Origin: Aquimarina sediminis
GTDB lineage: Bacteria; Bacteroidota; Bacteroidia; Flavobacteriales; Flavobacteriaceae
Direction of reading: 5' to 3'
Length of the DNA: 64,000 bases
NCBI RefSeq assembly: GCF_002895435.1
Contig: NZ_POYJ01000002.1
Span: forward strand, 620,001-684,000
Translations under genes and position numbers: made by a program
Notes under the pieces: generated by a model
Told to the model about the DNA's origin: nothing
Database searches by the model: none
Seen by the model: the letters and a program-made list of their open reading frames with translations, nothing else
Shown: piece after piece, positions 19,600-23,768 of the stretch
Layout: every line of letters begins with the position of its first letter
Numbering within the stretch: position 1 is the first letter of the stretch

Positions 19600-19675
19600 A
19601 CCCTTCGAGAACCTCAGGGTACGGATTGCTTACAATATATTTTCTTAGTAGCCGAGGGCTGAGGCTCTCGAAGCC
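19600..19675. repeat. Inverted pair of REP-like units
   Basis: CTTCGAGAACCTCAG (19603-19617) and CTGAGGCTCTCGAAG (19659-19673) are reverse complements with one mismatch. Each is itself bounded by short complementary ends (ACCCT/AGGGT; GGGCT/AGCCC). This is the paired arrangement of REP/BIME elements. No RAYT transposase gene is in the window. Confidence 0.6.
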
Positions 19676-19770
19676 CGGTAGTAGAAGTCGAGTGTTGAAG
19701 TTGACCATTAATACGTCAATTATACCTTTTTTATCCCTTACCGATAAGGGGGTAGCCCATCTGGTGAGAA

Positions 19771-20128
19771 TTCGAGTTGATCGCAAGGTGGTTCCAGCTG
19801 ATAGATTGCCGCTTCGAGCTGATAGTTTATCGTTTCGAGTTGATAATTTGACGATTGTTTTTGATAAAGTCCCGCTTCGAGCTGATAGTTTATCGAATAT
19901 ATTTGATAGGTTCACGCTTCGATTTGATAAATTATCAAATCGAAGAACCATTTTATCAACTCGAACCACCTATGCAGGTGGTTAGAATCACCTCGGGATC
20001 AAATCGAAGCGGCAATCTATCAGCCCGAACTACCTCTGTAGGTGGCTAGAAGCTTGACAATATCAGCTAGAACCACCTCGGCATCAATTCAAAAGACCTT
20101 TTTATCAGCTCGAGTCATCTATGATACC
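19771..20128. repeat. Degenerate 21-bp tandem repeat array A, switching orientation midway
   Basis: Seventeen consecutive units, all 21 bp except one of 22 bp (20044-20065). Units 1-8 (19771-19938) carry the core TTCGAGCTGATAG in forward orientation. Units 9-17 (19939-20128) carry its complement (CTATCAGC/TTATCAACTCGAA types) while staying in the same 21-bp phase. Units starting at 19813 and 19876 differ only at their last base. The forward half reads in one frame as heptads such as RADSLSF, RVDNLTI and RFDKLSN. It ends 115 bp before the CHAT gene. Confidence 0.88.
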
Positions 20129-20243
20129 CCTTTTATACTATTAAAAGGCAGATTAACCACTTTTAGCAAACAGTGTGGTAATTATTATACATCTGATTGA
20201 TTTTTACGTTCTTTGTTATTGATATAGTAACACATTATCTCTT

Positions 20244-23200
20244 ATGAAACCTCTACGATCACTTTTGCCAACCCCTATTTTCTGGATTACTTTTTTTATT
20301 GCCTTATCATATACCAGCTATGCGCAGGTAGAAAAAGACACCTTACTGGCTTCGCAGTACTATAAAACAGCAGATTCTTTGTTAATTGATAGAAAACTGG
20401 ATAGTTCTTTAGTCTATTTTCAAAAAGCATTGCCGCTTTATAAAAAAGCTGAAGTTTGGGAAAGAGTAGCGAAATGCCACAACAAAGTCTTTAATGTCCA
20501 CTGGTATAATCATTCAACATCTAAAGAGTTGTTAGAAAGTGCAAACTTAGCACTAGAGATTTGCAATCGATATTTAAAGAAAAATCATCCAGAAGAGGCA
20601 ACTGCTTATGATAACTTAGGGCGTTACTATCAAGATATATATGATTTTAAAACTTCAATTAGTTTTCTTAACAAAGCACTATTAATACGTCGTAAATCTC
20701 TCCCTAGAAACCATAAAGATTTAGCGATTTCATATCATAATATAGGCTATCTACAGCAGGAACATGGCATGTTTGAAAAATCCTATGAGAACTATCTAAA
20801 AGCATTATCTATAAGAATTAATGTTTATGGAGAAAATCATCCTGCAACTTCAGAATCTTATTTTAAAATAGGAGAAATATATGGGCGGCAAGGAAAATAC
20901 AATGAAGCAATAAGACAATATATAAAAGTATTAAAAATCAGAATCCAAGTATATGGTCAAAATCATGTACAAACAGGAGCAGTATATCGTAGTCTAGGAT
21001 ATAGTTATATGTCTAATTCAGAATATGTGAAATCCGAAATTAACTTAAAAAAAGGATTAGTTATTAGTATTAAAAACTATGGAGAAAATGATATGTACGT
21101 CGCAGGTTTGTATTACGTTTTAGGGATGTTATATAAAAGAGTAGGAAAATATGACCTATCTGAAAAAAATTATCAAAAGGCTTTACAAATTTATATTAGT
21201 TTGCTTGGAAAACAAACTACTCATGTTGCTAATACTAGTTATAGTCTGGCGGTACTTTTTGAAAACAAAGGTTTACCAGATACCGCCATAAATTATTATC
21301 AAAAAGCTCTTGAAATATATCTAAGCAAAAAAAAAGACCATCCCTACATTGGTAATATCTATAGTGGTATAGGAGGTGTGTTTTTTAGCAAAGGAGCTTA
21401 TAAAAAAGCTCGCCAATTTTATAAAAAAGGTTTAGATATAACCCTGAAAACTGTAAAAGAAAAACATTATCTAACAGCAACTGCATATTCCAATATTGCT
21501 TGGACTTATGCCTACCACGAAGACTACGAAATAGCTCTTGAATACAACAAAAAGGCTTTACATATTAGAGAAAATGTTTTTGGAAATAGTCATCCCAAAA
21601 TAGCTGCATTATACAACCAAAGGGGAGATATCCTTGAAATGGAAGAGCGATATATTAAAGCGTTATCATTTTATGAAAAGGCATTAGATGTATACACAAA
21701 TAAATTTAAAGAAGGGCACCCAAGCATAGCGGAGTCTTTAGATAAAATAGGTGATTTAAAACAAAAAAATCAACTCTTTGAAGAAGCACAGGATTATTAT
21801 GGTAGGGCATTAAAAATAAGAAAGAATATTTATCCGGAGAACAACAAGTTTATTGCAGAATCGTACAATAATATTGCTCAAACCTATTTTGATTCTGGAG
21901 CATATCAAAATGCCTTAGAAAATTATTCAAAAGCACAAAAAATAAATATCAAAAAAGATAATAGTAGCACTGATAATTTGTCAATTAACAGCTATTTGAG
22001 TTTAGATGTTTTACTAACAACCTTAGATGGGAAAGCAAAATCTTATTCATCTTTGTATCAAAAAAGTAAAGATTTGGATGATCTTAAAAAAGCAATCCAT
22101 GCCTATAGACAAACTGATACGCTAATTAATAGTATACGACAGACATATACTAATTATCAAGACAAAGTAGATTTTTCTAAACAAACTAAAGAAATCTATC
22201 AAGGAGCTGTAACTGCCCAGCTATTGCAAAAAGATCAACAATCCATAGAAAAAGCTTTTTACTACGCAGAAAAAAGTAAATCCAATACTCTTAAAGAACT
22301 ACTTAATGAAGCTAATGCTAAAAACTTTACAGGTTTACCACAAAATCTGGTGACCTTAGAAAAAGAGCTAAGAATCAATAAAGCTTTCTACCAATCTAAA
22401 ATCACAGAAGAATATTCAGAAAAAGAGATAGACACCTCCAGAGTCACTCATTTCGAAAATAAGCTATTCGGCATCAATAGACGTCAGGATTCTTTAACTC
22501 AGGTCTTAGAAAAAAACTATCCAAAATACTACCTGCTTAAATACAAGGATGATATTGCTACCGTACAGGATATCCAACAACAATTGGATGATAAAACGAC
22601 TGTATTAGAATTCTTTACAGGAGATAGTATTACCTATGCTTTTACCATTTCTAAAAACAATATCGCAGTGCAAGAGCTAGCCACTCCAAAACTTACGGAG
22701 CAGGTAGAAGAATTTCGTAAAACCATAGCTGATAAAAATATTGCTGATTTTAAAGAACAAGCACATGGTTTATACAATCTATTGATAGCTCCTGTGGCCA
22801 AGACATTTGTAGGGGATAACCTTATCATCATACCCGATGGTTCCTTATGGCATCTTAATTTTGAGTTATTGCTGACTCAACATGATAAATCTAATAACCC
22901 GGCACTATTATCCTATCTGCTTAGAGAATATGCTGTGACCTATGCCAATTCTGCAAATCTGTTGTTTGGAGGCACTAAGCATCAAGAACAGACTGAACCA
23001 TTACAAGAGTGCCTTGCCTTTTCCTTTTCTGATAGTACACAAACTGGAGAGACAAGGGCAATGAGTCTGGCTGCCCTTAGAGATGCAGGAGACGACCTAC
23101 CCGGGACTCGCAAAGAAATCAGAGCCATCTCTAACATTATCGATGGGCAATACTTTTATGGATCACAGGCAATAGAAGCTAATTTTAAGAAAAATGCCGG

Positions 23201-23768
23201 ACAATATAATATCCTACACCTTGCCCTACATGGAGAGGTAGATAACGAAAGACCAGAGAATTCCAAACTCTATTTTACCAAAAGTAAGGATACACTAGAA
23301 GACAATTTACTCTATAGTCACGAGCTATTTGCCCTGGATATCCCCGCAGAACTTACAGTACTTAGTGCTTGTAATACTGGAACAGGCAAAATTGCCAAAG
23401 GAGAGGGGATTATGAGTTTGGGTACTGCTTTTCAATATGCAGGTACCAAAAGCTTGCTACTCACCAGTTGGGAGGTATCAGATCAAACCACTCCAGAGCT
23501 AATGAAATACTTCTATACCAACCTTAAAGATGGGATGAGTAAACCCAAAGCCCTGCAACAAGCAAAATTACAATACCTAACCACCGCAGATATCAACAGA
23601 TTAGACCCTTTTTACTGGGGAGCATTTTATCTTGTAGGAGATGCAGCGCCCATTCCTTTTGAGAGTAATACATTACTGTATTGGATTATAGGAATTGTGG
23701 TGTTATTATCATTAGGAGGCTTGTTTTGGTATCGTAGGAGAGCCCGAGGTCGGGTGTCGGAAGTTTAA
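20244..23768 (+). CDS. TPR-CHAT domain protein, predicted periplasmic and membrane-anchored
   Basis: 1174 aa. Signal peptide at 1-28 (ending SYAQV). About a dozen kinesin-light-chain-type TPRs of about 42 residues (GxYxxAxxxYxKALxI...HPxxAxxYxNIG) run from about 35 to 575, then a helical linker, then a CHAT caspase-like protease domain at about 790-1130. The catalytic dyad is visible: His996 in LHLALHGEVDN and Cys1043 in LSACNTGTG. A transmembrane helix at about 1143-1163 is followed by WYRRRARGR, so TPR and CHAT would face the periplasm. The last codons overlap a short dispersed repeat (23744-23760). Target unknown; TPRs probably bind a partner. Confidence 0.9.
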   Translation: MKPLRSLLPTPIFWITFFIALSYTSYAQVEKDTLLASQYYKTADSLLIDRKLDSSLVYFQKALPLYKKAEVWERVAKCHNKVFNVHWYNHSTSKELLESANLALEICNRYLKKNHPEEATAYDNLGRYYQDIYDFKTSISFLNKALLIRRKSLPRNHKDLAISYHNIGYLQQEHGMFEKSYENYLKALSIRINVYGENHPATSESYFKIGEIYGRQGKYNEAIRQYIKVLKIRIQVYGQNHVQTGAVYRSLGYSYMSNSEYVKSEINLKKGLVISIKNYGENDMYVAGLYYVLGMLYKRVGKYDLSEKNYQKALQIYISLLGKQTTHVANTSYSLAVLFENKGLPDTAINYYQKALEIYLSKKKDHPYIGNIYSGIGGVFFSKGAYKKARQFYKKGLDITLKTVKEKHYLTATAYSNIAWTYAYHEDYEIALEYNKKALHIRENVFGNSHPKIAALYNQRGDILEMEERYIKALSFYEKALDVYTNKFKEGHPSIAESLDKIGDLKQKNQLFEEAQDYYGRALKIRKNIYPENNKFIAESYNNIAQTYFDSGAYQNALENYSKAQKINIKKDNSSTDNLSINSYLSLDVLLTTLDGKAKSYSSLYQKSKDLDDLKKAIHAYRQTDTLINSIRQTYTNYQDKVDFSKQTKEIYQGAVTAQLLQKDQQSIEKAFYYAEKSKSNTLKELLNEANAKNFTGLPQNLVTLEKELRINKAFYQSKITEEYSEKEIDTSRVTHFENKLFGINRRQDSLTQVLEKNYPKYYLLKYKDDIATVQDIQQQLDDKTTVLEFFTGDSITYAFTISKNNIAVQELATPKLTEQVEEFRKTIADKNIADFKEQAHGLYNLLIAPVAKTFVGDNLIIIPDGSLWHLNFELLLTQHDKSNNPALLSYLLREYAVTYANSANLLFGGTKHQEQTEPLQECLAFSFSDSTQTGETRAMSLAALRDAGDDLPGTRKEIRAISNIIDGQYFYGSQAIEANFKKNAGQYNILHLALHGEVDNERPENSKLYFTKSKDTLEDNLLYSHELFALDIPAELTVLSACNTGTGKIAKGEGIMSLGTAFQYAGTKSLLLTSWEVSDQTTPELMKYFYTNLKDGMSKPKALQQAKLQYLTTADINRLDPFYWGAFYLVGDAAPIPFESNTLLYWIIGIVVLLSLGGLFWYRRRARGRVSEV

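Follow-up and report, generated by a model that had tools for sequence, protein, structure and literature searches.

An intergenic 21-bp repeat array in Aquimarina sediminis is very probably a dispersed copy of an array that accompanies a Bacteroidota gene family

In plasmid iteron and partition-site arrays a small gene adjoins sites repeated in tandem at intervals of about two helical turns, and in type III toxin-antitoxin systems a repeat array with a period of 34-42 precedes the toxin gene. In the REPIN/RAYT systems the repeats are GTAG- or CGTC-tagged palindromes of 20-40 bp (PMC3733652). The open-licence PMC literature yielded no description of a gene-array system of the kind presented here, in which a small protein gene is followed by a degenerate array with a period of 21 bp and copies of the array are scattered over the chromosome.

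The DNA analysed, hereafter the window, is a stretch of 64,000 nt from Aquimarina sediminis (GCF_002895435.1, NZ_POYJ01000002.1:620,001-684,000, forward strand). The original prediction placed a tandem array of 21-bp units at 19771-20128, and the array is real: the identity at lag 21 across this interval is 0.501, a value reached by 0/2000 dinucleotide shuffles (mean 0.255, sd 0.023, max 0.332; z 10.7), and TRF returned periods of 21, 42 and 63 within 19792-19940. The homologous element is longer than predicted, spanning approximately 19733-20130, and it does end about 115 bp before the CHAT gene, as had been stated. Its parts and the adjoining block are as follows.

19733..19754, no strand assigned: left end, the G/C hairpin ATCCCTTACCGATAAGGGGGTA, which corresponds here to the GGGGTA/TACCCC feature of the element family (sequence and copy alignment)
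19771..19938, plus strand: eight 21-bp units with TTCGAG(C/T)TGATA-type cores (sequence, TRF, lag-21 test and core positions)
19918..19944, no strand assigned: flip point TTCGATTTGATAAATTATCAAATCGAA, a near-perfect dyad where the orientation reverses and the grid is kept (sequence and core positions)
19939..20128, minus strand: second half, about nine positions with TATCA(A/G)CTCGAA-type cores and two one-base slips (sequence and core positions)
20125..20130, no strand assigned: right end, TACCCC (sequence and copy alignment)
19733..20130, plus strand: whole element, very probably a gene-less dispersed copy, no gene of the partner family having been found within the 64 kb of the window (copy count, empty sites and hmmsearch)
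20201..20215, plus strand: TTTTTACGTTCTTTG block ahead of the CHAT gene and outside the element, a probable promoter (conserved where the element is absent)

The forward TTCGA-type cores at 19771, 19813, 19834, 19876 and 19918 share one 21-bp phase, and the degenerate forward cores read from the sequence at 19792, 19855 and 19897 are also on the grid. The reverse cores begin with TCGA at 19940 and 19961 in the phase of the forward cores, so the predicted change of strand on a single grid is borne out by the core positions, but not for the whole second half, where about two positions read as AGGTGG-TTAGAA-like sequence and are not complements. The unit length was likewise described correctly as a 21-bp grid, but two one-base slips interrupt it instead of one, the later reverse cores being shifted to phase +1 (20004 and 20025) and phase +2 (20110). 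A whole-array test of the window copy for in-phase inverted matches gave no signal (p 0.60), which is probably due to the blurring of a single phase by the later slips. In the window copy one unit of the second half is complementary to a unit in the first half of the same copy, and the duplicate at C11:592667 carries the common version, which suggests that an exchange between the two halves may have occurred. The view that the array is more than the product of simple slippage was upheld, and the absence of a named repeat was confirmed as far as Rfam 15 reaches, the window giving no match at the gathering scores.

The original prediction did not extend to the dispersal of the element, nor to its home copy, which stands at another genomic site and is paired with a gene. 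In the host genome (G000, 5.84 Mb) there are 11 copies including that of the window, nine of the others with 78-94% identity and one a partial copy with 73%; a 36-bp match at C8:105313 was left out of this count. The host genome has 19 occurrences of the core CTTCGARYTGATA, which lie inside ten of the 11 copy places. The host copies are intergenic, lie in differing contexts and are overlapped only by reading frames that the array itself creates; in their alignment the left ends agree well and the right ends vary. Flanks are shared with the window only by the copy at C11:592667, where the element and the TPR-CHAT gene were duplicated together. One contig carries the TPR-CHAT gene twice (window 20244-23768 and G000:C11 near 592667, L033), at a distance of about 47 kb and with opposite orientations, and both genes have a copy of the element ahead of them.

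At two places, relatives have the corresponding site without the element. In G020 and G050 the TPR-CHAT gene adjoins dusB in the same order as in the window, and the gap between them lacks the element, while the TTTTTACGTTCTTTG block, about 30-45 bp ahead of the CHAT start, is conserved. Five relatives (G027, G030, G004, G020 and G044) have, at the site of the C3 copy, 374-423 bp of other sequence between the same flanks, with lag-21 values of 0.36-0.42; by eye we take it to be a methionine sulfoxide reductase-like gene. The far end of this gene persists beside the element of the host genome as a remnant (approximately 2030-2215 of L037, G000:C3) and is longer in the five relatives, and this comparison suggests that the C3 copy took the place of part of the gene and did not simply insert. 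The gap at the same site is different and longer in G001, G002 and G050. The left flank of the C2 copy (L036) was matched in 8/8 relatives, and its right flank only in G050, at another location. No target-site duplication is readable at the copies, the flanks being too diverged. The window element is very probably a dispersed copy of a gene-partnered array.

The home copy in the host genome lies at C40:70054, directly 3' of a gene at C40:69443-69931, and G050 has an orthologous gene with its own array. The product of this partner gene, P0001, has 163 aa and gave no credible match in Pfam (E 0.01), NCBIfam, PHROG, PADLOC or PDB sequences, the best matches being weak and far below the cut-offs (NCBIfam E 0.03, PHROG E 0.02, PDB E 0.076); no DNA-binding domain was recognised in it. 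A class-wide profile search located the family in 25/345 Bacteroidia genomes and 17/178 genera, the host's included, and it appears to be a common, uncharacterised family of about 160 aa in Bacteroidota. With the family profile, no member was detected within about 2 kb on each side of the other ten host copies, or less at contig ends. The similarities of distant members to Gag_p15 (E 0.00044; 20.9 bits, cut-off 26.1), DUF6730 (E 0.0058) and NF001613 (E 0.00068; 19.6 bits, cut-off 120) fell below the cut-offs and were taken as chance. Phage or plasmid cargo was also rejected, as no relative was found in viral contigs, plasmids or phages and a tblastn search of 72,556 plasmid records with the partner protein gave no match. 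The neighbours of the partner gene vary widely between loci, and none is common to most of them; the commonest encodes a TPR-HTH protein (22/61). By eye, a CAGTTYC-N7-GAAACTG palindrome just ahead of the probable partner-gene promoter is visible in at least 8 of 26 rows (L155, L156, L159, L164, L165, L170, L173 and L126) and is possibly a shared operator. Another short palindromic repeat, CCCTTCGAGAACCTCAGGG with a near-complement, is located at approximately 19600-19675 of the window, and repeats of the CCCTTCGAGAACCTCAGGG type also precede partner genes in relatives (L164, L133 and L156) and the array of G002.

The association of gene and array was examined in two samples. A scan of GTDB contigs provided 61 loci, mostly from Aquimarina and also from Kordia, Galbibacter, Riemerella, Chryseobacterium and others, which are not independent and belong mostly to one genus; 58 of them were tested after L186, L200 and L201 had been dropped for having less than 300 bp downstream. 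With shuffle p-values from 200 or 300 shuffles in each association test, lag-21 arrays at p<=0.01 lay downstream of the gene in 49/58 loci versus upstream in 5/54, with 4/83 among background windows taken at dusB loci in 29 Aquimarina genomes. When the lags 12-30 were compared, 21 was the best downstream in 46/58 and upstream in 3/56; it was also the best in 10/83 background windows, where multiples of three were favoured. The result was replicated class-wide in Bacteroidia outside the host (downstream 22/28, upstream 5/28, p<=0.01); loci were derived from 30 of the 40 matches of the profile search, and after omission of the two host loci 28 were tested. Twelve further loci, mostly distant paralogs, had an array at the same threshold in 8/12. 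By this test 9/58, 6/28 and 4/12 loci, respectively, lack a downstream array. The family genes of L231 and L250 are preceded, not followed, by a 21-bp array, and the examined stretch revealed no other member of the family. The family gene and a downstream 21-bp array are thus associated in both samples.

The period is constant and the letters of the arrays have little in common between lineages. Close orthologs within the genus have arrays on the same grid with increasingly different letters, and the arrays of two paralogs in the host genome differ. The arrays of the further, mostly distant paralog loci have letters unlike those of the window, also inside the host genome (L214). Since distant Bacteroidota relatives usually have a 21-bp array downstream despite the different letters, our data point to the family and its array as an undescribed protein-plus-array system. 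Across the 49 arrays the mean lag spectrum, whose base is about 0.25, peaks at 21 (0.44), 42-43 (0.38 at 42) and 63-64 (0.35 at 63) and has slight humps near lags 10, 31-33 and 52-54, which are near half-periods of B-DNA turns. Under a 21-column permutation control the units are palindromic at p<=0.05 in 19/72 arrays (about 0.01 in 9) and without significance in 53/72, the window copy falling outside the significant set; in-phase inverted matches reach p<=0.05 in 22/59. A GGGGTA/TACCCC-type motif was found downstream in 47/58 loci, upstream in 9/54 and in 13/87 background windows, its G/C-rich parts standing at the ends or the centre of the arrays. A coding function of the array was rejected, as an open frame is present in 25/54 arrays and equally in 25/54 reversed controls, although array-made frames overlap most copies.

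The home genes of the host genome and G050 are 90% identical, their home arrays 66%, and the copies inside each genome have a mean identity of 82% and 93%, respectively; this pattern would follow if the copies had dispersed once the species had separated, or if they had changed in concert. In G024 a second copy of the unit lacks nearly the whole gene (L115, compared with L116), and gene-less copies are likely to arise by gene loss of this type. Relatives of the G020 array, with one to three matches over 200 bp per genome, are present in seven genomes (13 rows), and G001 has two such matches, yet is without a close ortholog of the partner gene. Three similar units of G019 (L047, L048 and L049), each with an array, a PAAR-domain gene and a further gene, are 87-93% alike, so that the arrays there travel with duplicated PAAR genes. 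After the arrays at L044, L045 and L046 of G050, near contig ends, stands a GTGTTCAAT(T/A)AAGTGTGTCA-like sequence, which in our judgement resembles the end of an insertion sequence.

We propose that the array acts as DNA, in which units two B-DNA turns apart would be bound on one helix face by a single protein, either the partner or one recruited by it. The strand could reverse without loss of phase because the sites would be dyad-like, and the dispersed copies, with the window element as a putative gene-less satellite among them, could offer further platforms for binding between other genes. A gene-partnered array working in this way through DNA binding seems to us credible, though we hold it at a little short of an even chance. 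The partner protein would be the simplest choice of binder; the acidic character of the five partner proteins checked (pI 4.9-5.3) counts against DNA binding. Binding by the partner, helical phasing as the reason for the 21 bp and an effect of the dispersed copies are each conceived here as conditional parts of the mechanism. We infer that the arrays fit DNA with sites two B-DNA turns apart better than RNA, because the 21-bp step is constant under changing letters, the units tend to dyads, the flip is in phase and covariation is weak. A wider version, in which each family protein across Bacteroidota would read its own lineage-specific dyad array, protein and array co-evolving under the fixed spacing and gene-less copies such as that of the window acting as remote platforms, is doubtful at present.

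The gene and array might instead be selfish and mobile without a host function, the array being the non-autonomous form, as REPINs are to RAYTs, and the protein or another enzyme copying it. The 11 copies in differing contexts, the long matches in seven genomes including those of G001, the element-free sites at dusB-CHAT and C3, the gene-less L115 and the variable neighbours of the partner gene would all suit such dispersal, but the partner protein has no transposase domain, the Y1 transposase profile PF01797 had 0 matches in the host genome while 5/14 control genomes were positive, no target duplication can be defined and the C3 copy seems to replace part of a gene. Copying alone would hardly account for a period that stays fixed while the letters of distant lineages are unrelated, and we consider this explanation rather unlikely. 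An array transcribed and folded into an RNA that acts with the protein, for example as a type III toxin-antitoxin-like partner, would agree with the small protein gene adjoining the repeats and with the fold of 19760-20140, which was proposed for checking and is indeed strong (-142.9 kcal/mol, z -10.5, shuffles as good 0/100). Such a fold is, however, expected of two opposed halves, and the predicted hairpin does not appear to be conserved as RNA: both sides changed in 7/102 predicted pairs among 10 copies and in 0/29 in a second set of seven arrays, with an unfavourable covariation term in both (+2.1 in the former), and Rfam searches of four copy loci (L032, L034, L035 and L040) gave 0 matches up to E 1. 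A terminator-like hairpin separates gene and array in 15/49 loci, the array lies 3' of the gene and not ahead of it as in type III systems, and perfect short palindromes such as CTAAACCGGTTTAG would make poor RNA hairpins, all of which renders an RNA element improbable.

That slippage arrays merely gathered here as satellite DNA, with the gene irrelevant, would accord with their degeneracy and with copies that differ by whole 21-bp units (exact 21-bp gaps in L038, L040 and L041), but the downstream and upstream counts of two samples, the constant period with unrelated letters and the in-phase flip leave this very improbable. The original prediction also saw in the element a possible influence on the expression of the TPR-CHAT gene, for which the short distance and the copy ahead of the second TPR-CHAT gene could speak. 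The second case, however, arose when element and gene were duplicated together, the block ahead of the CHAT gene is kept in relatives without the element and the remaining copies adjoin unrelated genes, so a local regulator is the explanation to which we attach the least credence, close to none. If the reading of a gene-partnered DNA array is true, a common unnamed Bacteroidota gene family has a partner DNA element that is absent from annotation, and its rule is one of spacing and not of sequence, the 21-bp step remaining fixed while the letters vary by lineage. This would offer a direct way to find members and many natural protein-array pairs for tests of recognition co-evolution.

Among the known systems, CRISPR arrays have constant repeats, unique spacers and cas genes; the units here are contiguous and degenerate and flip strand. 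The element resembles MITEs in being short, non-coding and dispersed with palindromic ends, but no parent transposase was detected for it, and its diverged flanks showed no target duplication. With type III toxin-antitoxin systems it shares a small protein gene adjoining a repeat array, and it differs in the array being 3' of the gene, in the period of 21 instead of 34-42, in the strand flip and in the weak covariation. Tandem sites about two turns apart with a small gene adjoining recall the plasmid iteron and partition-site arrays, but our arrays lie on the chromosome, the protein had no match among plasmid or phage records, no Rep or Par domain was found in P0001 and the letters change completely between lineages. 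The closest likeness in arrangement is to REPIN/RAYT, with a resident gene beside the repeat, scattered intergenic copies and palindromic repeats. In the host genome, however, no Y1 (HUH) transposase was found, the partner protein showed no relationship to RAYTs in the searches made, and a long array with a 21-bp period stands against palindromes of 20-40 bp (PMC3733652). The system is therefore not REPIN/RAYT by its defining gene, though arranged alike, and if our reading is true, it would provide a non-transposase counterpart for asking why bacteria keep scattered families of intergenic repeats.
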